DNA of 21,217 nt from a virus: positions 1 to 21,217 of the IMG/VR virus record IMGVR_UViG_3300034104_000205. One strand, 5' to 3'. The position numbers were made by a program, and so were the translations under genes. Positions 8,903 through 21,217 of the stretch are shown here, in pieces (the first letter of the stretch is position 1; every line of letters begins with the position of its first letter). Below the pieces are notes generated by a model. The model was not told the DNA's origin and searched no databases. It saw nothing but the letters and a program-made list of their open reading frames with translations.

Positions 8903-9552
8903 CCACCACGATGACCGCGCTTAATAGCGCAAACATCCGACACGCCGAATTCGTCAAGCTGTCAGTTGGCAATCCCGCATCGCCAACCGTCTACACCTTC
9001 TGCAACGCTGCTGCTCCCGTGACGGTCAGCGGTATCACCTTTAGTTCGCTCGGGGCGCTGTTGGCTGTCGGTGAAGTGCAGCGGGATGTCAAGGCAACCT
9101 CGTTTGATATGTCGATCTCTTTGACCGGCATTGATCCGAACTACGTTGCTCTGATTCTCTCAAGCGACATCAAGGGCAGCACCGTAGAGGTTTGGCGCGG
9201 CTTCCTTGACTCTGACAATCAGATCATCACCACGCCGACGCTTCAATTCTTCAAGCGGTGGCAAGGCATCATCAACAACGTCAACATTACAGAAGACTTC
9301 AACGAGCAGATGCGGCAGCGCGTGGCGACTTGCAACATCACTTGCTCAAGCATGAGGCGGGTGCTAGAAAACCGCCTTGCAGGCATCAAGACCAACAAAA
9401 CCATTTGGCAGTCGATCTATCCCGGCGATACCTCCATGAGCCGAGTCGATGCCATCTCGAACACCTACTTTGACTTCGGCGGCAAGCCCAACACGGGCAG
9501 CATTTCAGAGCCGGGTGGCGGGCAAGAAATACCGGAGACACAACAAAATTGA
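8899..9552 (+). CDS. Minor tail protein, probable baseplate hub (DUF2163/gpL-like)
   Basis: The 217-aa product begins in an ATGA overlap. It contains ITFSSLGALLAVGEVQRDVK, then SFDMSISLTGIDPNYVALIL and a strand-rich VEVWRGFLDSDNQII section describing a hub-like beta domain, followed by FKRWQGIINNVNITED. The C-terminal part (RVLENRLAGIKTNKTIWQS, then YPGDTSMSRVDAISNTYFDF) resembles the end of phage proteins annotated as DUF2163 or minor tail proteins, in which a Cys-containing segment precedes it (CNITCSSM here). In lambda the equivalent gpL carries cysteines that bind an Fe-S cluster. Here only the pair in CNITC is evident, so that function is not claimed. The final residues are Gly/Gln-rich. 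Confidence 0.65.
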   Translation: MTTTMTALNSANIRHAEFVKLSVGNPASPTVYTFCNAAAPVTVSGITFSSLGALLAVGEVQRDVKATSFDMSISLTGIDPNYVALILSSDIKGSTVEVWRGFLDSDNQIITTPTLQFFKRWQGIINNVNITEDFNEQMRQRVATCNITCSSMRRVLENRLAGIKTNKTIWQSIYPGDTSMSRVDAISNTYFDFGGKPNTGSISEPGGGQEIPETQQN

Positions 9553-9995
9553 TCCGCGAAGCATCCAAGTTTGATCTAGACGCTTGCGTTGAGATGATGC
9601 GTAAGTACGCATCAGAGTCGCCTATCTTCAAACTTCGGCAAGCTGCGTTTCACGACAACTATTATGTAAGGCACTTCCTGTTTAGTTTGATCTGCGGTCG
9701 CGGGTTCATCTTTGTTGACAGTCAATATCGCGGAATGATTGCCGCCATCGTCACGCCAAACATTTGGTGCCCCGGCGTGCATGAGGTTAAAGAGTTGGCG
9801 TGGTGGGTTGACCCCGAGCACCGAGATGGAACAATCGGCGGCAAGTTGTTTGTTGCCTATAAGGTCAAGGCCGAAAAGCTGATCAAGGAAGGTCGGGCGC
9901 AGGTTATGAGCGTGTCGCTTATGGCTAACAGCCCATCAATTGATTTAGAGGGTCGCGGGTTCAAGCGGATTGAATCCACCTTCTGCAAGGAATAG
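9549..9995 (+). CDS. GNAT-family N-acetyltransferase in the tail module
   Basis: The 148-aa protein has the GNAT shape: an N-terminal helix pair (ASKFDLDACVEMMRKYASES), a beta strand (GRGFIFVDS), a central strand and acetyl-CoA loop (VHEVKELAWWVDPEHRDGTI, residues about 78-96) leading into a helix, and a C-terminal GRGFKRIESTF. The loop reads R92-D-G-T-I-G97-G, where the usual R-x-x-G-x-G has Thr in place of the first Gly. It starts at TTG 9549, overlapping the previous stop as TTGA, with GGAGA ten bases upstream. The substrate is unknown. Acetylation of a tail or host surface protein, or a non-catalytic role, are both possible. Its position just before the J-like gene is where NlpC-type peptidases often occur. 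Confidence 0.82.
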   Translation: MIREASKFDLDACVEMMRKYASESPIFKLRQAAFHDNYYVRHFLFSLICGRGFIFVDSQYRGMIAAIVTPNIWCPGVHEVKELAWWVDPEHRDGTIGGKLFVAYKVKAEKLIKEGRAQVMSVSLMANSPSIDLEGRGFKRIESTFCKE

Positions 9996-9997
9996 AA

Positions 9998-12900
9998 ATG
10001 CCCGCAACCATGATTCTTGCCGCCATCGGTGTCAGTGCAGCCACGATTGGCGCAACGGCATTTGCTGCGGCTGTCTTTGCGATCAACTTTGCCGTTTCTT
10101 ACACAGTGACTCGGGTGTTTGGCGCGAAGCCCCCGCGTCAGCAGGACAACGGCGTAAGGCAGCAGATTCCTCCAAGCGCAGACAACTCTATCCCTGTCGT
10201 CTACGGTGAAGCATGGATGGGCGGCACCTTTGTTGATGCGGTGCTGACTTCTGACAACCAAGCGATGTACTACGTCTTGGCGATCAGCAACATCTCGCCA
10301 AACGGTCAGTTCACTTTCGACACTACTCAGTTTTACTACGGTGATCGGCTCATTACCTTTGCGCCCGGAACCAACCAAGTCGCATCTCTGACTGACGGCG
10401 CGGGTAACGTCGATACAAAGATCAACGGTTACCTCTACATCAACCTGTACACCTCGACCGCATCGGGAACCATTACAACCGTTCTCGGCACCGCGCCGAA
10501 TGTGGCAATGGGTGGCGTAGACATCCCCGTTGCGCTTCGATGGCCTGCCTCGGGTCGGCAGATGAACGGGCTTGCATTTGCAATCGTCTACCTAAAGTAT
10601 TCGACCGATGCGGGATCGACCGGCTTGCAGCCTCTGACCTTTAGGGTCAAGCACGCATTGAACGGCACCGGCGTTGCAAAGCCGGGTTCTGTCCTCAAGG
10701 ACTATCTAACCAACACGGTCTATGGCGGCGCGGTGCCTTTGGCAAACGTCAACACCACGGCTTGCGACGACCTTGATACCTACTCAGACCAAACCATCAC
10801 CTACACGCCTTCGGGCGGCGGGTCAGCGACTCAGGCGCGGTATCGAATCAACGGCGTCATTGATACGGGCGAAACCGTACTCAACAACATCGAAAACGTA
10901 CTGATTGCTTGCGACTCGTGGATTGGTTATCAAGCTGAGTCGGGTCAGTGGGCACCCATCATCAACAAGGCAGAGTCCACGGGCTTTGCGTTTGATGACA
11001 CCAACATCATTGGCGACATTCGGGTATCGGCCACCGACATCACATCAAGCATCAATCAGGTTGAGTTGTCGTTTCCTTGGAAAGACAACAAAGACAAACC
11101 CGGCTATGTCTTCCTTAATCTAGCGGTGCTCAATCCTTCGCTGCTTTATCCGAATGAGCCAGTGAACAAGTACACCGCGACCCTGAGCATGGTCAATGAC
11201 TCTGTTCAGGCGCAGTACCTTGGCAATCGAATGTTGGAGCAGGCCCGCGAAGACTTGATCGTTTCCTTCAACACGGCATACCCCGGCATTCAAGTCAATG
11301 CGGGTGATGTGGTGAGCGTGACCAACTCTGCCTATGGTTGGACGAATAAGCTGTTCCGCGTCATTAAGGTCAATGAGGCAAGTCTGCCGGACGGCAACCT
11401 TGGTGCGCGTTTTGAACTAAGCGAGTACAACGCTCAGGTCTATGACGATATGCCGATCACGGCATTTACGCCTGCGCCCAACAGCGATCTTCAGTCGGGC
11501 TATTACTTCCCAACGCTATCTGCTCCGACATTTACAGACCAAGCACCTAGCGTGCAGCCGCCGACCTTCAGTGTTGTCTGTCAACTTCCTTCGACCGTTC
11601 GGGTCACAAGGGTCACTCTTTACTACACAACGTCAGCATCTCCGACGCCTAGCGATTGGAAGGTTTGGAATACAGAATCGGCGTCCAACGCGGCGGCATT
11701 TACGCCGGGCCTGTCACTTAAGTTCCCGAACGTCAATCTTGCTCCGGCAACTTACTACTTCGCCTTCTCGGTAGAAAACGAAGTTTCCATCTCGCAGCTT
11801 TCTACAACGTCTGCTGCTTTTGTTTGGTCGCCAACTTCTGCGGTCGGCCCCACCGGCCCTACGGGAAGTTCAGGCGCAACCGGCGGTACAGGAAACAAAA
11901 CCGGGCGTGCCGTTGTCTATCAATGGGCGATCACCATTCCCGCAGGACCAACAGGCACCTCAACCTATACATGGGCAACAGGCGACATCAGTCCTGTTCC
12001 CGCCGGATGGTCAACCACCATCACGGTATCGCCAAGCGCGGGCTTCACTCTTTGGGCGGCGACCGCCAATTTGATTGCCACCGATGCCGACGCGACAAGC
12101 ACGATCAATTGGTCGACGGCAAGCATTCTGTCGGCAGGCTACGCGGGGGTGACTGGGCCAACTGGCACTACAGGGCCAACTGGGTCAGGCACAAATGGCG
12201 CATCCTCCCGCATCTGTTTTGCGCGGGTGCCTAACAACCCGGCTCCGGTGTCGGGCAACATCACCACATCGGGTTCAGCATCATTCCCCTCAAGCGCACA
12301 GTCTTTGTCCACTTGGGGCTTCTCGGCTACTTGGGGCGCGTCTGACCCTAATCCGTCTAGCACTGACTCGCTGTATCAAAGCGATGGCATCTATGACCCG
12401 ACCACCGGCAACACGGTGTGGACGACGCCTTACATCTCAAGCCTGAAGGTCGGCACGCTGTCGGCCATTACAGTCAACACGGGTGCGCTGACGGTTCAAA
12501 ACACTTTGACCATCAACACGCTTGGAAAGATTCAGGGCGGTCAGACCGACTACAACACCGGAACGGGTTTCTTCCTTGGCTATAGCGGTGGTGCGTATAA
12601 GTTCAGCATCGGCTCGACCACGCAATCTCTGTTGTGGGATGGATCAACACTAAACATTACGGGTAACTTTGTCGGCAAGTCGGCATTGTTTAATGGTTCC
12701 ACCGTTGACGGTTCTTCAACTGCCACGGTCATCATCAAGCCTTCCACAACTTCAGGCGCGAACAGTCTGACGGTTGAAGGCACGGGGGCCGGATACGCAA
12801 TTGGCGTTTCGTCTAATTCGACCACTACCCCCGCGATTTCTTCACAAGGATTTTGGTACGGCGTTGAGGGCATCGGCTTTGCCCCCGGCACTACACGCGC

Positions 12901-13714
12901 AGCTATCGGCGTGCGCGGAATCGCATATGGTCAAAACACGGTTGGTGGGCAGTTTGAAGAATCGGGAGAAATTACTTCTCTTGCGCTAAAGGCAGTTGGC
13001 AAAGCAGTCATTACGGGCGATCTAACCGTCAATGGCAGCACCCTGTCTAGCGGCGTTCAACTTCCGCAATCCAATGAACTTAGGTGGAGAAATTCGGTCG
13101 GTGGACTTGGTGCTTATGTCTATACAGATGGCAACGATGCGCTTTACCTAATTTCGGGAGCATCGGGGTCCGCAAGTCCAAAGGCTGTTTTGTTTGGAAC
13201 AAAAGGGACATCCCGCGCTCGGATAGACGACTCTTTTCTTCGTCCCGAAGTGGACAATTCAATGACCTTGGGGTCGGCATTTTTCCGATTTGTGGATGTG
13301 TATGCCGTAAGCGGGTCGGTCAACACCTCGGACGAACGGGAAAAGAACATCCTTGGTGACAACCCTCTCGGGCTTAACTTCATCAACAAGCTGCAAACCA
13401 TTCAATACAAGTGGAAGGCGGCGCAGGCTGCGGTCAAGGAAAACGTCTTCGACGATGAAGGCAACCTGACAGGCGAACGGGAAATTCAACCGGCTCGCGA
13501 GGGCGTGCGTACTTTCCACGGCTTGAGTGCCCAACAAGTCAAGGCGACCTTAGATCAGCTTGGCGTGGATAGCTTTGCCGGGTGGGTGTTGGCAGACAAA
13601 GACGATCCTGACAGCATTCAGGGTTTACGCTACAGCGAATTCATCGCTCCGCTGATCAAAGCGGTGCAAGAGCTATCGCAAAAAGTTGCTGACTTGGAGG
13701 CAAAACTTAAATAG
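9998..13714 (+). CDS. Tail tip / central fibre protein (J-like) with C-terminal S74 intramolecular chaperone
   Basis: The 1238-aa protein forms the tail tip and fibre. Residues 1-40 are strongly hydrophobic, followed by RQQIPPSADNSIPVVYGEAW, the start seen in gpJ-like proteins. An FnIII-like beta domain lies near 505-610, then short Gly-Pro-Thr collagen-like linkers (about 616-640 and 716-734). A fibre segment with KIQGGQTDYNTGTGFFLGY (about 843-860) and repeated beta-helix-like strands follow. The last 128 residues are a peptidase S74 / endosialidase chaperone domain: S1111-D-E-R-E-K1116 matches the Ser/Lys dyad five apart, and LRYSEFIAPLIKAVQELSQK is the typical end. This domain trimerises the fibre and is expected to cleave itself off before Ser1111. 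AAGGA precedes the ATG by about seven bases. Confidence 0.88.
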   Translation: MPATMILAAIGVSAATIGATAFAAAVFAINFAVSYTVTRVFGAKPPRQQDNGVRQQIPPSADNSIPVVYGEAWMGGTFVDAVLTSDNQAMYYVLAISNISPNGQFTFDTTQFYYGDRLITFAPGTNQVASLTDGAGNVDTKINGYLYINLYTSTASGTITTVLGTAPNVAMGGVDIPVALRWPASGRQMNGLAFAIVYLKYSTDAGSTGLQPLTFRVKHALNGTGVAKPGSVLKDYLTNTVYGGAVPLANVNTTACDDLDTYSDQTITYTPSGGGSATQARYRINGVIDTGETVLNNIENVLIACDSWIGYQAESGQWAPIINKAESTGFAFDDTNIIGDIRVSATDITSSINQVELSFPWKDNKDKPGYVFLNLAVLNPSLLYPNEPVNKYTATLSMVNDSVQAQYLGNRMLEQAREDLIVSFNTAYPGIQVNAGDVVSVTNSAYGWTNKLFRVIKVNEASLPDGNLGARFELSEYNAQVYDDMPITAFTPAPNSDLQSGYYFPTLSAPTFTDQAPSVQPPTFSVVCQLPSTVRVTRVTLYYTTSASPTPSDWKVWNTESASNAAAFTPGLSLKFPNVNLAPATYYFAFSVENEVSISQLSTTSAAFVWSPTSAVGPTGPTGSSGATGGTGNKTGRAVVYQWAITIPAGPTGTSTYTWATGDISPVPAGWSTTITVSPSAGFTLWAATANLIATDADATSTINWSTASILSAGYAGVTGPTGTTGPTGSGTNGASSRICFARVPNNPAPVSGNITTSGSASFPSSAQSLSTWGFSATWGASDPNPSSTDSLYQSDGIYDPTTGNTVWTTPYISSLKVGTLSAITVNTGALTVQNTLTINTLGKIQGGQTDYNTGTGFFLGYSGGAYKFSIGSTTQSLLWDGSTLNITGNFVGKSALFNGSTVDGSSTATVIIKPSTTSGANSLTVEGTGAGYAIGVSSNSTTTPAISSQGFWYGVEGIGFAPGTTRAAIGVRGIAYGQNTVGGQFEESGEITSLALKAVGKAVITGDLTVNGSTLSSGVQLPQSNELRWRNSVGGLGAYVYTDGNDALYLISGASGSASPKAVLFGTKGTSRARIDDSFLRPEVDNSMTLGSAFFRFVDVYAVSGSVNTSDEREKNILGDNPLGLNFINKLQTIQYKWKAAQAAVKENVFDDEGNLTGEREIQPAREGVRTFHGLSAQQVKATLDQLGVDSFAGWVLADKDDPDSIQGLRYSEFIAPLIKAVQELSQKVADLEAKLK

Positions 13715-13842: not shown

Positions 13843-14331
13843 ATAGCGATCTTCAACAAGAATACGCTTGCCCAAGTCAGCGGGTTCGACAATCCAATTC
13901 TTGCCGGTGAACTGGTTTGGAACCAAAAGACCTATTGGAATCTTTCGTTCACCAATTGCGCTACCGGCCTGCCGATTCCTCTGACCGGCGCAACGCTTGA
14001 CGCTCAGATCGTCCGGCGACAAGTCAGCAACATCGTAGACACCCGCAACGGTCTGACATTCGACATTGCGGATTACACGCCGACCCCCACGCCGGTCAAC
14101 CTCACGATAAGCAACCGCAATGACGCGGCAGGCACGTTCACGCTTGTCATTGACGATTCCACTTGGTCGCTGATCAACAGCGATCCTCAGCTAGAAATCA
14201 ACGCTCAGGATTGCGTGGGTTTCTCAGGGCGCATCAAGGTTTCCTTCCCCGCTAGTGGCAGCACGCCGCAGGATGACGCAATCATCTTCCTGCTGTTCCT
14301 TGTTCGCTCCGACGGGGTGGTGGTGGTATGA
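13756..14331 (+). CDS. BppU-like baseplate/fibre N-terminal domain protein (start uncertain)
   Basis: The conserved part reads [20 protein letters not shown] followed by [14 protein letters not shown] and [13 protein letters not shown], a beta-rich pattern like the N-terminal domain of phage baseplate upper proteins (BppU), which anchors fibres to the tail tip. Hydrophobic strands close the protein. The start is a problem: GTG 13756 is the longest canonical choice but its first 29 residues look non-coding and lie in a hairpin. TTG 13819 has AGGG at a long distance. The natural N-terminus by similarity would be at 13843, where the codon is ATA and the ribosome site AGGCAGGG is well placed. Up to 191 aa. 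The stop overlaps the collagen-like gene (ATGA), indicating coupled production of anchor and fibre. Confidence 0.65.
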
Positions 14332-16643
14332 GCAACATCAAGGTTGTCGTCCAAGACGGTAATAACGTCAATCTTCAGGTCACTCCCACGCCTGATGTAA
14401 GCGTCAGGCTTGACCGCAGCGTTTCCGGGGCTACAGGACCGACCGGGCCTTCGGGTACTGCCGGACCCACTGGGCCTTCAGGTACTGCCGGACCCACGGG
14501 TGCCACGGGCGCTCCCGGTCCTGCGGGTGGGCCTACTGGTCCCACGGGCGCTACGGGCAATACCGGCGCGATAGGCCCGACTGGCGATGCAGGTCCAACC
14601 GGTCCGACGGGCAGCGCAGGCGCGACAGGCCCAACCGGCGATATGGGGCCAACCGGCGCGACAGGCCCAACCGGTGCACAAGGCGGGCAAGGAACAATTG
14701 GCCCGACCGGTCCGCAGGGCGTTCAGGGCATCCAAGGCATTCAAGGCGATCATGGGCCTACCGGACCGCAAGGCCCGACCGGACCACAAGGTGTGGCAGG
14801 CCCGACCGGCGCGATTGGCCCAACCGGAGATATTGGACCTACTGGACCGACGGGTACACAGGGTGCTCAAGGCAATATCGGCCCGACCGGCCCGCAGGGA
14901 AACCAAGGCATTCAAGGTGACCACGGCCCAACAGGACCACAGGGCGTTACAGGCCCGACCGGAGCGCAGGGAAACGTAGGCGCAACCGGCCCAACTGGAG
15001 CTCAAGGGGACACTGGACCTACGGGACCGCAGGGCGTACAAGGTATTCAGGGTGACCAAGGCGTACCCGGACCGACCGGCCCGATTGGACCTACAGGTTC
15101 TCAAGGCAACGTAGGCCCGACTGGTCCTACAGGGGATGCCTCAACCGTTCCCGGACCCACTGGTCCAACAGGCCCGCAAGGTATCCAAGGCGACCACGGC
15201 CCGACCGGCCCTCAAGGTGTACAGGGCGATCAGGGCTTTGTTGGGCCTACCGGCCCTCAAGGCTCGACAGGCCCGACTGGCCCGCAGGGCAACCCCGGCG
15301 CGGGCGGTACTGTCGCGTATTGGGGATCGTTTTGGTCTACGCAGGATCAAGTCGCGGCGGCTCCCGATACGGCTTACTCAATCACACTCAACAACACCGA
15401 TCCTGATTCGAACGGGATTAGCGTTGTCTCAAACAGCCGCGTCACGTTCTCGCAGGCGGGAACCTACAGCTTGACGTTCTCAATTCAGTTCGTCAACACC
15501 GACACGCAAATTCACGATGTGAACGTGTGGCTGCGGAAGAACAACGCGGGAAGCTCGGGCGACATTCCCGATTCCGATACTCGTCTGAGTATTCAGCAGC
15601 GTCACGGCAACGTGGACGGGTATGGTCTGATGACTGTCAACTTCGTGCTGAAGTTGGCAACGGCAGACTACATCGAAATGATTTGGTCAACGACAAATAC
15701 GACCACATCAATTCAGACCGTCCCGCCGGGAACAACTCCGGTTTCACCGCAGATTCCCGGCGTTATCTTCACGGCCACCCAAGTCACCTACACGCAGAAT
15801 GGTCCGACTGGCGCTGCCGGTCCTACGGGTCCACAGGGATTTGTTGGTCCCACTGGTCCGCAAGGCCCACAAGGCATCCAAGGCACTCCCGGCGATACGG
15901 GCGCAACCGGCCCAACGGGAGCACAAGGAAACACCGGCCCGACCGGACCTACGGGTGATGCTTCTACCGTTCCCGGCCCGACTGGTCCTACCGGCCCGAC
16001 TGGCGCACAAGGGATTCAGGGCGATCACGGCCCAACCGGCCCCCAAGGCCCGCAAGGCATCCAAGGCGATCAGGGTCCACAAGGGAACACTGGGCCTACT
16101 GGGGCGCAGGGTGCTGTCGGCCCGACCGGGCCTACCGGGGCGCAAGGAATCCAAGGTGACACCGGCCCAACGGGACCGCAAGGACCGCAGGGCAATCAGG
16201 GCATCCAAGGCGACACCGGACCTACCGGACCCACGGGCGCACAAGGCATCCAAGGCATCGCAGGGCCAACCGGCCCCACCGGACCCACGGGCGCTATCGG
16301 ACCCACTGGGCCTACGGGCGCACAGGGCATTCAGGGCGACGCGGGACCGACCGGCCCTCAAGGCGTGCAGGGCATTCAGGGTGTTCCGGGCAATACCGGA
16401 CCCACCGGACCGACAGGAGATGCCTCAACCGTTCCGGGACCAACAGGCCCAACAGGTGCAATTGGCCCGACCGGTCCTGCCGGAAGCGGTGGCAGCGGTG
16501 GGCCTATCTTGGAAAACAACATCACGATCAGCAGCAACTACACGCTGACCGCAGGCAAAAATGGTTTTAGTGTCGGCCCTGTAACCGTGGCAACGGGTGT
16601 GTCGGTTACTGTGCCAAGTGGTCAACGATGGGTTGTGATCTGA
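14328..16643 (+). CDS. Collagen-like tail fibre protein with internal C1q-like domain
   Basis: The 771-aa protein has a 33-residue N-terminal piece, a long Gly-X-Y collagen segment from residue 34 to about 325 (mostly GPTGPTG, GPQG, GIQGDHG units), a globular beta domain (about 327-491, containing [28 protein letters not shown] and NVWLRKNN), then a second collagen segment (492 to about 725) and a short C-terminal beta cap ([17 protein letters not shown] to PSGQRWVVI). The middle domain has the jelly-roll feel of C1q/TNF trimerisation domains. It is likely a trimeric fibre, and probably binds the host or extends the reach of the tail. Three copies of a [14 protein letters not shown] unit interrupt the strict Gly-X-Y phase. 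ATGA overlap with the BppU-like gene. Confidence 0.88.
15135..16438 (+). repeat. Three dispersed 20-bp repeats in the collagen gene
   Basis: Near-identical 20-base stretches encoding GDASTVPG lie at 15135-15154, 15957-15976 and 16419-16438 (first and third differ at one position, the second at about three). They are embedded in highly repetitive Gly-Pro-Thr coding DNA and could serve as recombination points. Confidence 0.75.
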
Positions 16644-16651
16644 GGTAAGAC

Positions 16652-17806
16652 ATGGCAATCACCATAAACGGCGGCTCAGGCAACAACTCCATCAGCGGCA
16701 CTTCAGCCGGTGCGAGTGTTGATAGCACTGGTGCCGTGACTATTCCTGTTGGCACGACTGCTCAACGCCCTGCAAGCCCGACTGCGGGGATGATTCGTCA
16801 AAACTCAACCACCGGATTGCCGGAATGGTGGGATTCTTTGGGCAATCAATGGGTGATATTTAGCACCCTTCCTTCATACTCCGCAGCGGTGCTTTTAATT
16901 GGTGGCGGCGCGGGCGGCGGTGGTGGAACTGGAGCCGGTGGCGGTGGTGCCGGAGGACTTTTATATTACGGCAGCGAAACCCCAAAAACCCCTAATGGAA
17001 GTGCGTTGTCATTTACCCCCGGAACTTCATATTCAATCGTTATTGGTGGTGGCGGCGCAGGCATTAGCGGTTCGGGAGCATCAAATTCGGGGTCAAATTC
17101 AACACTTACTGCGTTTTCGTTAACTTCAATTGGCGGTGGATACGCTACATCAGGCAACAATACTGCTCCGGGTGGTGGTGGTGGCTCAGGAGGTGGTGCA
17201 ACTGGTAATAGCGGCGGCACCGGACCCGGTGGTGGCGGTGGTGCCGGTACGGTTGGACAAGGAAATGCCGGTGGCAATGGTTATCATATTGGTGGCGTAA
17301 AAGTTGACGGTGGCGGTGGTGGTGGCGCGGGCGCGGTTGGAACTAGTGCCGATAACCTATCTTTTCCAAATGGTGTTTATCCGAATGGGGGAGTCGGGCT
17401 TGCATATTCCATAACAGGCACATCAGTCTTTTTTGCGGGCGGTGGCGGCGGCGGTGGTCACTTTGATGGTTCTAAAGCTGGAAATGGTGGCAACGGCGGC
17501 GGTGGCGGCGGTGGTGGAAATAATAATAACGGCACTGGCGGTTCAGGATTGAATTCCGGTGGTAATGGAACCACTGCATCAACCAATGCGCTAGGTGGAA
17601 ATGGCGGCGCAAATACTGGCGGCGGTGCCGGAGGTGGTGGCGGCACAACATCCGGCACGGGCGGCAATGGCGGTTCGGGTGTTTGCATCATTTCTTATGC
17701 AAGCCCTACGCAACGCGGAACCGGCGGCACCGTTACTTCGTACACCAGTGGCGGCACAACCTACTGGGTTCACAGATTTAATTCATCGGGGACATTCACA
17801 GCATGA
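16652..17806 (+). CDS. Glycine-rich tail adhesin/fibre protein 1
   Basis: The 384-aa protein begins with a short phage tail module (INGGSGNNSISGTSAGASVD, then VGTTAQRPASPTAGMIRQNS and PEWWDSLGNQW) seen at the start of many fibre proteins. The central two thirds are dense glycine runs (GGGAGGGGGTGAGGGGAGGL and similar, residues about 88-340), ending in SGVCIISYASPTQRGTGG and a conserved SGGTTYWVHRFNSSGTFTA. Such polyglycine-rich segments are known to pack as polyglycine-II sandwiches in the receptor-binding gp38 adhesin of phage S16, so a receptor-binding tip is a reasonable inference. GAGGT lies six bases before the ATG. It is the first of three paralogues in tandem. Confidence 0.8.
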   Translation: MAITINGGSGNNSISGTSAGASVDSTGAVTIPVGTTAQRPASPTAGMIRQNSTTGLPEWWDSLGNQWVIFSTLPSYSAAVLLIGGGAGGGGGTGAGGGGAGGLLYYGSETPKTPNGSALSFTPGTSYSIVIGGGGAGISGSGASNSGSNSTLTAFSLTSIGGGYATSGNNTAPGGGGGSGGGATGNSGGTGPGGGGGAGTVGQGNAGGNGYHIGGVKVDGGGGGGAGAVGTSADNLSFPNGVYPNGGVGLAYSITGTSVFFAGGGGGGGHFDGSKAGNGGNGGGGGGGGNNNNGTGGSGLNSGGNGTTASTNALGGNGGANTGGGAGGGGGTTSGTGGNGGSGVCIISYASPTQRGTGGTVTSYTSGGTTYWVHRFNSSGTFTA

Positions 17807-18924
17807 GTGAAATCCGCGCAGGCACTACGACCACCACTGCACTGGTCACAACCGGCGATACGACCGGGAATCTTGTGCTGACCCCGGATTCGGGTTTCGC
17901 TCAGGTAAACGCAACTGGTGCATTGGGCATTCCGGTTGGGACTACAGCGCAACGACCGGCAAGCCCGACTGCGGGCATGATTCGTCAAAACAGCACAACG
18001 GGACAACCTGAGTGGTGGAGTCCTTTGAGTAATGCGTGGGTTGCATTTAACGCAACACCCACATACCAAGTTTCATACCTAATTATTGCGGGTGGCGCAT
18101 CAGGCGGGGCAGTTTGTGGCGGCGGTGGTGGCGCGGGAGGATTACTTGCTAATACTTCTACGGTAAATCCGCTTACTGCATATCCTATTGTAGTCGGTGC
18201 CGGGGGCGCCGCTGTCACTGTTACAAATGTTCCAACTGGATCAAAAGGCAACAACGGGTCAAATTCTTCCTTTAACTCAAATACTGCAATAGGTGGTGGC
18301 GCCGGTGGCGCATATTCGGGTTCATCTAATCCATCACAAAATAATGGTACTGCCGGTGGTTCAGGCGGCGGTGGTGCAGGAACTGAGGGTACTGGTTTTT
18401 ATCCCGGTGGCGCAGGGACTTCGGGCCAAGGAAACACTGGAGGCAGTGGTTACATGGTCCAAGGCGAATGGCTTGTTGGGGGCGGCGGTGGTGGCGCAGG
18501 CAGTGTTGGTGCAAATGCCTCAACTGGTGGCGTGCCGGGTAATGGCGGCAATGGAACGTCCTCAAGTATTACTGGCTCTTCTGTAACTTATGCCGGTGGC
18601 GGCGGTGGCGGTGGTCATGTATCAAGTCCTGCGGGTGCAAGCTCATTTGGATCGGGTGGTACAGGTGGAGGTGGTAGAGGAGGCTCCGGTACTGTTACCA
18701 ATGGCACATCAGCAACCGTCAATACTGGCAGCGGCGGCGGTGCGGCCGGTTATCCCGCGCCCGGCTTGACTTATATTTCCGGCGCGGGCGGCTCGGGGGT
18801 TGTCATCATTTCTTACGCCAGTCCTACTCAAATAGGCACAGGCGGCACAGTAACTTCCTACACCTCCGGTGGCACTACCTACTGGGTTCACACCTTCACC
18901 TCTAGCGGAACCTTCACGGCCTAA
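17803..18924 (+). CDS. Glycine-rich tail adhesin/fibre protein 2
   Basis: The 373-aa paralogue starts in an ATGA overlap with the previous gene. The N-terminal module differs at first (IRAGTTTTTALVTTGDTTG, LTPDSGFAQVNATGALGIP) and then shares VGTTAQRPASPTAGMIRQNS and PEWWSPLSNAWV almost exactly with copy 1. The glycine-rich centre (about residues 100-335) has a different pattern of insertions, including YMVQGEWLVGGGGGGAGSVG. The end (VVIISYASPTQIGTGGTVTS, SGGTTYWVHTFTSSGTFTA) again matches copy 1. The conserved ends and variable middle point to a shared mount with different binding surfaces. A polyglycine adhesin role is inference. Confidence 0.8.
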   Translation: MSEIRAGTTTTTALVTTGDTTGNLVLTPDSGFAQVNATGALGIPVGTTAQRPASPTAGMIRQNSTTGQPEWWSPLSNAWVAFNATPTYQVSYLIIAGGASGGAVCGGGGGAGGLLANTSTVNPLTAYPIVVGAGGAAVTVTNVPTGSKGNNGSNSSFNSNTAIGGGAGGAYSGSSNPSQNNGTAGGSGGGGAGTEGTGFYPGGAGTSGQGNTGGSGYMVQGEWLVGGGGGGAGSVGANASTGGVPGNGGNGTSSSITGSSVTYAGGGGGGGHVSSPAGASSFGSGGTGGGGRGGSGTVTNGTSATVNTGSGGGAAGYPAPGLTYISGAGGSGVVIISYASPTQIGTGGTVTSYTSGGTTYWVHTFTSSGTFTA

Positions 18925-18936
18925 AAGGACAACAAG

Positions 18937-19995
18937 ATGCCATCAATCATCAAAGCAGACGACGGCGCTGTTTCCGGCATTTCAGGTATCACAAGCACTG
19001 CTGACACTAGCGGCATTCTTGAGTTGACTGCCACGAACAACATAGTTCGTCAGAATGTGACTGGAGCATCTGGTCTTGCTGTTGGTACTACAGCACAACG
19101 ACCTGCGTTGCCTTCTAATGGGGATACTCGCTATAACACTTCCACAAATGTAATGGAGGTTTACATCCTCGGAGCTTGGTTAACGCTAGCTACTCTCAAC
19201 TATTCTCTTGATTATCTTGTGGTTGCTGGCGGTGGCGGTTCTTCTGCTGGCGGTGGCGGGGCTGGTGGATATATTGTCGGTTCAATTAGTAATGTTTCTT
19301 CAGGGACTGCCTATTCAATCACTGTGGGTGCTGGCGGCGCCGGATCAACGAACACAAGTAACGGTGGTGCAAACGGTACTAATGGCTCTAATTCAACCGG
19401 CTTCTCTCAAACGGCTACAGGCGGCGGCGGGGGAGGTAAATGGAATAATCCGGGATCAAGTGGTGGTTCTGGTGGCGGCGCTGGAAATCGAGGTAGTAGT
19501 TCTGGGGGTTCTGGAACAGCAGGGCAAGGAAATGCTGGTGGAGCTTGTGGCGGCGAGGATATATCCGATGCTGGCGGTGGCGGTGGCGGCGCGGGTGCGG
19601 CAGGGCAAACAGGATCAAATGGAAATGCTCGCGGCGGCAATGGTGGTGCAGGGTTGAACTGGCAATCTCTTGGGACTTTTTATGCCGGTGGCGGTGGCGG
19701 CGGTGGTAGAAATCCCGGAGCAGCTAATTTATCTTCCGGTGGAGCAGGCGGGGGAGGCACCGGCGGCAATGGCACAAACGGGACGGCGACTGCCGGAACT
19801 GCCAATACAGGAGGAGGAGGTGGTGGTAGTGGCTATCAGGAATCTGGTGACAACTATTGGAATGGAACCAATGGCGGTTCTGGAATTGTGATTGTTCGTT
19901 ATCTCGGGACTCAACGCGGCACAGGCGGCACCGTTACCACTACAGGTGGTTACACCTATCACACCTTCACTTCTTCCGGCACATTCACTGCATAA
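18937..19995 (+). CDS. Glycine-rich tail adhesin/fibre protein 3
   Basis: The 352-aa third paralogue follows after 12 bases with AAGGA before its ATG. The N-terminus (IKADDGAVSGISGITSTADT) is like the opening of copy 2 in layout, and GLAVGTTAQRPALPSNGDTR replaces the TAGMIRQNS version. The glycine-rich core (about residues 97-320) includes GGGGGGKWNNPGSSGGSGGG and a Cys-containing GNAGGACGGEDISDAGGGGG. The end IVIVRYLGTQRGTGGTVTTT and HTFTSSGTFTA is a variant of the same C-terminal motif. It is the most divergent of the three and its codons look richer in A/T at the third position. Likely another adhesin or fibre tip subunit. Confidence 0.78.
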   Translation: MPSIIKADDGAVSGISGITSTADTSGILELTATNNIVRQNVTGASGLAVGTTAQRPALPSNGDTRYNTSTNVMEVYILGAWLTLATLNYSLDYLVVAGGGGSSAGGGGAGGYIVGSISNVSSGTAYSITVGAGGAGSTNTSNGGANGTNGSNSTGFSQTATGGGGGGKWNNPGSSGGSGGGAGNRGSSSGGSGTAGQGNAGGACGGEDISDAGGGGGGAGAAGQTGSNGNARGGNGGAGLNWQSLGTFYAGGGGGGGRNPGAANLSSGGAGGGGTGGNGTNGTATAGTANTGGGGGGSGYQESGDNYWNGTNGGSGIVIVRYLGTQRGTGGTVTTTGGYTYHTFTSSGTFTA

Positions 19996-20008
19996 CAGGA
20001 GCAGACAA

Positions 20009-20389
20009 ATGGGACATTTCGCAAAAGTTGTTGACGGCAAGGTCACTCAAATCATCGTGGCAGAGCCTGAGTTTTTCCAAACCTTCGTGGACTCAAGCCC
20101 CGGCGAGTGGCTGCAAACCTCTTATAACACCCGTGGCGGTGTTCACTACAACCCCGAAACCGGCGAACCGTCTGCGGATCAGTCAAAGGCTTTGCGGAAG
20201 AACTACGCAGGCATGGGCTATTCGTATGATCGTCAGCGTGATGCGTTTATCGCTCCGCAGCCTTTTGCGTCTTGGGTTTTGGATGAAGCCACTTGTTTGT
20301 GGAATGCGCCCGTGCCCTATCCCGCCGATGGCAAGCGATATGCATGGGATGAAGCCACAACTTCTTGGGTTGAATTCGTGGGCGCATAA
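20009..20389 (+). CDS. Conserved phage protein of unknown function (MGHFAKV-type)
   Basis: The 126-aa protein starts at ATG 20009 with AGGAG at 19997-20001. An upstream in-frame ATG at 19892 lies inside the preceding gene and is not credible. It has an N-terminal strand pair GHFAKVVDGKVTQIIVAEPE, a middle WLQTSYNTRGGVHYNPETGE and NYAGMGYSYDRQRDAFIAPQ, and a C-terminal ATCLWNAPVPYPADGKRYAW segment. I recognise this overall arrangement from many environmental phage genomes, where it is unassigned. It always appears compact and aromatic-rich, as in small structural or fibre assembly proteins. Its place just after three adhesins makes a fibre-associated or assembly role possible. No enzyme motif is visible. 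Confidence 0.75.
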   Translation: MGHFAKVVDGKVTQIIVAEPEFFQTFVDSSPGEWLQTSYNTRGGVHYNPETGEPSADQSKALRKNYAGMGYSYDRQRDAFIAPQPFASWVLDEATCLWNAPVPYPADGKRYAWDEATTSWVEFVGA

Positions 20390-20394
20390 CCATC

Positions 20395-20616
20395 ATGGAA
20401 TCGCAAGTTTTCATCAATTCTATTTTTGGTGTGGCCGCATTCCTTGGTGGATGGGTGCTTAACAACATCACGCGCACAATCAATCGGATTGATAAAGACT
20501 TGCGTGAGATGCCGCACATCTACGTCACGAAGGACACTTACCACCGCGACATAGACGAACTGAAGGACATCTGTAGGCAAATCTTTGCCAAGCTAGATCA
20601 CAAAGCAGATAAGTGA
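20395..20616 (+). CDS. Small membrane-anchored protein with coiled coil
   Basis: The 73-aa protein has one hydrophobic helix near the N-terminus (about residues 7-24, FINSIFGVAAFLGGWVL), followed by a charged helical tail (TRTINRIDKDLREMP and HRDIDELKDICRQIFAKLD) likely to form a coiled coil. It lies five bases after the preceding stop and overlaps the next start as TGATG. Phages often carry such a protein near holin/lysis genes. It could be a holin-like or spanin-like accessory, but no signature settles it. Confidence 0.72.
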   Translation: MESQVFINSIFGVAAFLGGWVLNNITRTINRIDKDLREMPHIYVTKDTYHRDIDELKDICRQIFAKLDHKADK

Positions 20617-21110
20617 TGGAACCGATAACCGGCATTCTTGCGGCAGTCTCAGCAGCGAATGCCGCCTTCGGTGCAGTCAAGAAACTTGTTGCCACTGGGC
20701 GCGAGATTCAGGACGTTGCCGGTCAGATCGGCAAATGGTACGGGGCGTTTGGTGATTTCAATCGCCTCGCCAACGAGAAGGCCAACAAGAAGCCTTCGGT
20801 CTTCAAACGGCTGCTGCATGACGACAGCATTGAGAACGAAGCCTTGCAGATCACGATGCACAAGCAGGCACTGATCAAGCAGGAGTACGAACTAAAGATT
20901 CTGATCGTCGCTCACTACGGTGAGAACGTCTACAACGAGATGATCATGGAGCGCATCCGGCTGAAGAAGGAGCGCGAGAAGAAGGAGCGTGAGCATCGCC
21001 TTCGGCAGCAGGAATTCATGCTCAACGCCAAGTACGGGGCAGCAATTGCTTTCGTGGCAGTCGCCCTGATTGCGGTTGGCTACTACTTAATCGACAAGGT
21101 ACAGCAATGA
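20616..21110 (+). CDS. Helical protein with C-terminal membrane anchor
   Basis: The start is taken as ATG 20616 (TGATG overlap with the previous stop). GTG 20613 is the alternative with one more residue. The 164-aa product has an Ala-rich N-terminal helix (ITGILAAVSAANAAFGAVKK), a long charged helical middle (ERIRLKKEREKKEREHRLRQ) and one C-terminal membrane helix (AAIAFVAVALIAVGYYLI) near residues 140-157 with a short basic-neutral end. No enzyme motif is seen. This topology, cytoplasmic coiled coil with a tail anchor, suits a membrane-associated phage protein in the lysis region, but its function is unknown to me. ATGA overlap with the next gene. Confidence 0.75.
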   Translation: MEPITGILAAVSAANAAFGAVKKLVATGREIQDVAGQIGKWYGAFGDFNRLANEKANKKPSVFKRLLHDDSIENEALQITMHKQALIKQEYELKILIVAHYGENVYNEMIMERIRLKKEREKKEREHRLRQQEFMLNAKYGAAIAFVAVALIAVGYYLIDKVQQ

Positions 21111-21217
21111 GTTTCAGGAAGCCGCCGGATGGCGCAAGCCGGTCAGAGAGGGAAGCCCATGTCAAGGCTCTTGCTGCGGTTTCTATTAGCCTGCTTGCTC
21201 TACTCCTTGCTGTTACA
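21107..21217 (+). CDS. Partial membrane protein, holin or spanin candidate (cut at window end)
   Basis: The first 37 residues are visible: a basic/charged start (MSFRKPPDGASRSEREAHVK) followed by a hydrophobic segment ALAAVSISLLALLLAVT that runs to the window end. It starts in an ATGA overlap with the preceding gene. A single N-terminal membrane helix after a charged leader fits an inner-membrane spanin, a class of holin, or another signal-anchored phage protein. The rest of the gene is needed to decide. Confidence 0.6.
   Translation, partial: MSFRKPPDGASRSEREAHVKALAAVSISLLALLLAVT

Follow-up and report, generated by a model that had tools for sequence, protein, structure and literature searches.

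Three tandem glycine-rich proteins, probable tail fiber adhesins, in an exchangeable cassette of an uncultured aquatic siphovirus

Glycine-rich adhesins are key determinants of host range in the hafunaviruses (PMC8651126), in which a single adhesin gene is followed by a small gene in a hypervariable region. In cyanophage Pam3, the fiber protein gp24 is paired with the chaperone gp25 (PMC9608196); gp24 is a single fiber protein that forms a homotrimer with an alpha-helical shaft, and it has a beta-sandwich base, a glycine-rich lattice with a variable distal tip, and a small partner gene downstream. The gp38 adhesins of Salmonella phage S16 and the T-even-like phages carry glycine motifs with hypervariable loops (PMC6851490), and the gp38 gene lies directly past the stalk gene. 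The same glycine-rich domain is represented by Pfam family PF21722 (Gly_rich_2) and PHROG family 2295; our literature search on PF21722 found nothing. A related arrangement occurs in a cultured phage, the Autographiviridae podovirus CRP-143 of Roseobacter, in which three glycine-rich genes and a homolog of the partner gene described below (g21) form one cluster (gp39 to gp42).

Here, we analyzed a 21,217-base record from an uncultured aquatic bacterial virus (the window), which carries siphovirus head and tail genes. Its major capsid protein shared 57% identity with the one in Methylophilaceae phage P19250A, and the two phages had the same gene order through the tail genes as far as the J-like gene; by gene content and order, the virus was a siphovirus and a distant relative of P19250A. 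Following the J-like gene, the window contained g16, a collagen-like fiber gene, three glycine-rich genes (A, B, and C), g21, g22, and g23. In P19250A, g16 and a collagen-type gene were followed by genes that we read by eye as methyltransferase-like and glycosyltransferase-like in place of the array, and that phage's own glycine-rich protein was encoded upstream of g16. The window also had two adjacent genes (185-1528 and 1571-2650) that both matched phage capsid family PF05065 and were 38% identical to each other, and P19250A carried the same pair. A genome scan for a prophage or host produced a sole match, one contig of a metagenome bin. Genes A, B, and C were consecutive open reading frames (ORFs) on one strand; the stop codon of A overlapped the start of B (17803-17806), and 12 nt separated B from C. 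The features of the locus were as follows.

14328-16643, plus strand: collagen-like fiber (stalk) gene, 5' of the adhesin genes (PF01391, E 3.8e-72)
16652-17806, plus strand: putative glycine-rich adhesin A, 384 aa (PF21722, 23.9 bits; AlphaFold pLDDT 86.1, pTM 0.82)
16748-16858, plus strand: GTTAQRP N-module of A (84% identity to the B module; match to CBA120 TSP3)
17714-17800, plus strand: C-terminal hairpin of A, ending in SGTFT (hairpin profile, 1.2e-9)
17803-18924, plus strand: putative glycine-rich adhesin B, 373 aa (PF21722, 1.2e-19)
17935-18045, plus strand: GTTAQRP N-module of B (from the alignment)
18835-18918, plus strand: C-terminal hairpin of B (hairpin profile, 6.2e-9)
18937-19995, plus strand: putative glycine-rich adhesin C, 352 aa (PF21722, 1.9e-23; AlphaFold pLDDT 88.0, pTM 0.80)
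19078-19185, plus strand: GTTAQRP N-module of C (from the alignment)
19915-19989, plus strand: C-terminal hairpin of C (hairpin profile, 1.8e-11)
20009-20389, plus strand: g21, 126 aa, candidate partner gene (phrog_7759, 4.7e-30)
20395-20616, plus strand: g22, first conserved gene past the cassette; its ATG is the right edge of the exchanged segment

Proteins B and C scored 71.6 and 84.1 bits against PF21722 (cut-off, 24.3 bits). Protein A fell 0.4 bits below this cut-off, yet it aligned lengthwise with B and C, and all three belonged to the phage glycine-rich proteins of phrog_2295. By profile and alignment, we classified A, B, and C as same-strand paralogs of the Gly_rich_2 family. A sequence-only reading of this DNA had described three tandem glycine-rich genes with conserved ends and different centers. 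This description was confirmed for A and B, as their ends were 88% identical (99.6th percentile, i.e., the top 0.4%, of 1,035 family pairs from 46 relatives) and their non-glycine cores were 28% identical (57th percentile of the same pairs). The pattern was weaker for C, whose N-module was 44% identical to those of A and B, compared with 70% between A and B. Identity of the C-terminal ends was 89% for A and B and 74 and 76% for the other two pairs; with narrower segment limits, the A-B values were 84% for the N-module and 91% for the C-terminal end. As the same reading had noted, a VGTTAQRPA-type N-module and a terminal SGTFTA were present in all three proteins.

At the DNA level, A and B were 73% identical on the N-terminal side (16727-16879 and 17914-18066) and 74% identical on the C-terminal side (17662-17802 and 18780-18920). 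The short DNA similarity reported between 16770-16800 and 17960-17990 was real, with 29 of 31 positions identical, but its register was off by 3 and the true partner was 17957-17987. The polyglycine middles had been said to differ; they did contain variable segments, but they were homologous (local scores 13 to 16 SD above shuffles) and shared a glycine frame. Outside G-G columns, the centers of A, B, and C were only 25 to 30% identical. All 24 invariant columns in the alignment of 46 relatives were glycine, and mean pair identity was 82% in the glycine frame versus 32% in the segments between glycines. Judged from this alignment, the diversity of the centers sits between the glycines and the frame itself is conserved. 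The family therefore resembled gp38 in having glycine motifs split by hypervariable segments.

Two confident AlphaFold monomer models (A and C) had strands in the N-module, at both boundaries of the glycine-rich domain, and in the C-terminal hairpin; the long glycine stretches in between were not strands. Read from strand layout and fold matches rather than from coordinates, the models suggested that a beta base supports a glycine lattice. The sequence-only reading had advised looking for a polyglycine-II sandwich in such models; the closest folds were of the Pam3 and ALK type, and S16 gp38 was not among the matches listed. The PDB matches of A and C were individually weak. The best was the Bxb1 tail tip (E 0.0019, for A); the Pam3 fiber matched with a probability of 0.60 to 0.84, an E value of 0.15, and a TM score of 0.27 to 0.41 (target TM, 0.35 to 0.41), and the ALK/LTK glycine-rich domains matched with modest scores. 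Foldseek searches of predicted viral structures produced 87 matches at E values up to 0.001, and those listed were mostly phage proteins named glycine-rich, including Q8V6M2 of halovirus HF2. The HF2 adhesin was a fold match only, as neither it nor its small neighbor was found by sequence profile. A PDB sequence search with the full glycine-rich profile yielded chance matches only.

The N-module matched the C-terminal end of the CBA120 tailspike TSP3 in sequence (5.7e-5), and the tightest structural match was a 42-column piece of TSP3 (rmsd of about 1 Å). A role of the TAQRP module in anchoring to the virion was considered but not adopted, given that its match of solved structure is C-terminal in TSP3. 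There were also differences from the described adhesins. The fold match between Pam3 gp24 and A or C was moderate, and the A and C monomer models had no helical shaft. In the case of gp38, which has an N-terminal helical attachment domain and a beta-helix, no such helices appeared in the A and C models, and no gp38 chain was found among the sequence matches or the listed fold matches. The hafunavirus locus has one adhesin, whereas the window has three putative ones.

The proteins also differed from the canonical PF21722 domain in strand order. The canonical first strand is N-terminal; in A, B, and C, the hairpin followed the core, and the profile was matched only from position 14-15. In contrast, CRP-143 gp39 and gp41 have the canonical order, with the hairpin before the core and a match from position 1; the stretch of CRP-143 that we read also lacked a collagen stalk. 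According to these profile alignments, the SGTFTA ending is the first hairpin of the glycine-rich domain, circularly permuted, which would account for its conservation. The hairpin was on the C-terminal side in 74 single-core relatives and on the N-terminal side in 5, a ratio biased by the use of the window's own profile to gather the relatives. Protein A was left unassigned in this count, as its core match stops early, and its hairpin was located at residues 355-383 (model strands at 360-366, 369-376, and 380-383). Both ends of the domain would meet in its base, and such a junction would explain why the ends are conserved and the segments between glycines vary.

In a quick tree, A and B formed a pair (SH-aLRT 86), and C grouped with proteins of two other loci, L013 and L025 (SH-aLRT 98; loci gathered from other contigs carry L numbers). 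The tree indicated at least two origins for the three genes, with C separate from A and B. Comparison of C with its L013 relative (core, 73 to 78% identity; N-module, 50%; leader, 26%) supported the idea that C is a domain mosaic. The sequence-only reading had called the locus recombination-ready on account of DNA shared at the gene ends, a view that our data did not support for these copies. At fourfold silent sites, the A and B ends matched at a frequency of 0.37 to 0.43, compared with 0.42 in the core and 0.28 at random. The silent sites of the ends were nearly as scrambled as those of the core and were close to saturation, which argued that the ends are held by selection on the protein and not by fresh exchange, and which ruled out recent duplication or gene conversion of A and B. 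The L013/L025 pair showed a recent core replacement (P = 0.003). Array-mates on one contig shared C-terminal ends slightly above expectation (P = 0.012; 0.037 without the window) and had weakly alike N-modules (P = 0.034; 0.11 without the window), and their cores were no more alike than expected; these were small effects from 13 to 16 pairs.

To compare the locus among relatives, we used profiles and anchor genes because direct searches were empty: a tblastn search of the glycine-rich proteins against cultured phages and a related-locus search with A found no matches, which we attributed to low-complexity filtering. Degenerate DNA patterns derived from A and B matched no other viral contig, and we thus saw no strain carrying this A or this B. 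With g16 and g23 as anchors, 160 loci were fetched. The best DNA matches among them were 100% for g16, 100% for the stalk, 95.5% for g22, and 96.4% for g23; only 69% for C and about 71% for g21; and for A and B, none over at least 70% of the length. Relatives that were near-identical in parts of the flanks carried no A, B, or C. On the left, homology ended within the stalk gene (at 16408 or 16468 in L055, L057, L073, L074, and L075), so that the last 175 to 235 nt or so of the stalk gene, with its C-terminal tip domain, were inside the exchanged segment. On the right, homology resumed exactly at 20395, the ATG of g22, in seven loci (L057, L061, L073, L074, L075, L142, and L207). The sequences 5' of this position differed among the seven, some being alike among L073, L074, L075, and L207. 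The edge was sharp and fell on the g22 start codon despite these several upstream sequences.

The slot between the edges was filled in different ways, based on our reading of S74 and LamG motifs by eye. In L057, it held other glycine-rich genes, g21, and a LamG-like protein. In L061 and L073 to L075, the stalk was extended by a long fused tip of the S74 type, whereas L142 and L163 carried LamG-like proteins and further loci carried other genes. The swaps, gains, and losses that the sequence-only reading had suggested looking for were all seen between relatives, in line with its proposal of a variable repertoire locus. We read the stalk tip, the adhesin genes, and g21 as an exchangeable host-range cassette; its replacement is apparent in the alignments, and a role in host range would follow from its contents. 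The filling of the slot with fiber-tip genes was the main reason for placing A, B, and C at the putative recognition end of the fiber. Based on phmmer, the stalk tip domain preceded a glycine-rich gene in 8 of 21 cases, from which we drew no enrichment because glycine-rich genes had served to fetch most of the loci.

Arrays of three or four glycine-rich genes were found on other phage contigs (L032, L034, L035, L038, and L040), and the members of those in L034, L035, L038, and L040 were often far apart on the tree, as if drawn from a shared pool. Elsewhere in the window, a small acetyltransferase-like gene (phrog_1249, 9549-9995) lay within the tail operon directly before the J-like gene (9998-13714), whose product ended in an S74 chaperone-type domain. 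The C-terminal half of the J-like gene had a full-length DNA match in L054 only and the N-terminal half was more widely kept, which suggested that the J-like protein is a second variable tip.

The g21 gene came after a glycine-rich ORF in 31 of 33 cases among adhesin-fetched loci and in 9 of 11 cases among anchor-fetched loci, the latter being unbiased (P = 4e-6, against a background in which 17% of long ORFs in anchor-fetched loci were glycine-rich). Homologs of g21 also adjoined glycine-rich genes in the cultured phages CRP-143 and HTVC025P, the latter a Pelagibacter phage; in phiPsal1, none of the g21-neighboring genes read was annotated as glycine-rich. Another kind of gene was downstream of 17 of 95 glycine-rich ORFs, so g21 was not obligatory. 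The g21 product matched no Pfam family, and a link to Tfa-type chaperones was therefore not supported; in addition, a profile comparison found no homology to the hafunavirus small protein. By its linkage and by analogy with Pam3 (PMC9608196), g21 may be a chaperone or a tip subunit.

Taken together, we consider it likely that A, B, and C are distal tail fiber adhesins in a swappable cassette and are co-expressed rather than switched. Each would begin with a variable leader, followed by the small beta module bearing GTTAQRP, the glycine-rich domain, and the C-terminal beta hairpin, with the glycine motifs forming a frame that carries the variable segments and the hairpin closing the base of the domain. 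The collagen stalk gene upstream, the three adhesin genes, and g21 probably form one operon, and g21 probably helps to fold or mount the adhesins. Segments that contact receptors would diverge freely, and selection on the protein would hold the frame and ends. It is rather improbable that only one copy, perhaps C beside g21, binds the receptor, with the remaining two being accessory or decorative proteins or relics that await recombination. In several contigs, the match between C and other phages continues into g21, and neither A nor B has a close relative, but all three reading frames are intact with a full glycine frame and conserved ends, glycine-rich arrays recur in other contigs, and the maintenance of the A and B ends over saturated silent sites points to function. 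We also regard it as unlikely that the proteins are general decoration or structural components of the virion. Glycine-rich domains occur in many phage proteins of no tested function and need not all sit at a tip, and relatives of the N-module are often annotated merely as virion structural proteins. Against this, the slot in relatives holds tail fiber tips, and the hafunavirus, Pam3, and gp38 adhesins provide precedent; the family and slot evidence likewise supported the earlier description of the proteins as receptor-binding types.

The suggestion that the copies are used alternatively, with DNA switching or recombination between their ends selecting a single copy, is very unlikely. They are paralogs with similar ends, and core replacement has occurred in L013 and L025. 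However, the genes overlap on one strand, promoter and terminator signals within them did not exceed chance, no homopolymer tract was longer than 6, the only two inverted-repeat matches (78 to 80% over 20 to 23 nt) were not credible, and the saturated silent sites also count against exchange at the ends. The gene layout, repeats, and promoter and terminator scan ruled out switching by inversion. There was no credible repeat pair in 15500-21217 for a diversity-generating retroelement (DGR) or an invertible switch, and no recombinase or reverse transcriptase gene was recognized in the window, which is an incomplete genome. A branched tip built from A, B, and C, as the sequence-only reading had imagined, is possible. 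The more particular idea that matched bases (N-module and hairpin) let the three co-assemble into a hetero-oligomeric tip with three recognition faces is decidedly unlikely; it would account for the tendency of array-mates to have ends, and not cores, in common, but array size ranges from one to several among relatives.

For the likely reading of A, B, and C as co-expressed tip adhesins, the locus would represent a recurrent layout in aquatic phages, in which a fixed stalk is followed by a recognition end that is either fused to it or supplied as tandem separate adhesins with a partner gene, and this end is swapped en bloc, with a sharp edge. The reading offers testable parts, namely, which of the proteins bind receptors, whether they share a tip, and what g21 does. 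The permuted domain can also help to annotate many unnamed proteins of marine and freshwater phages.
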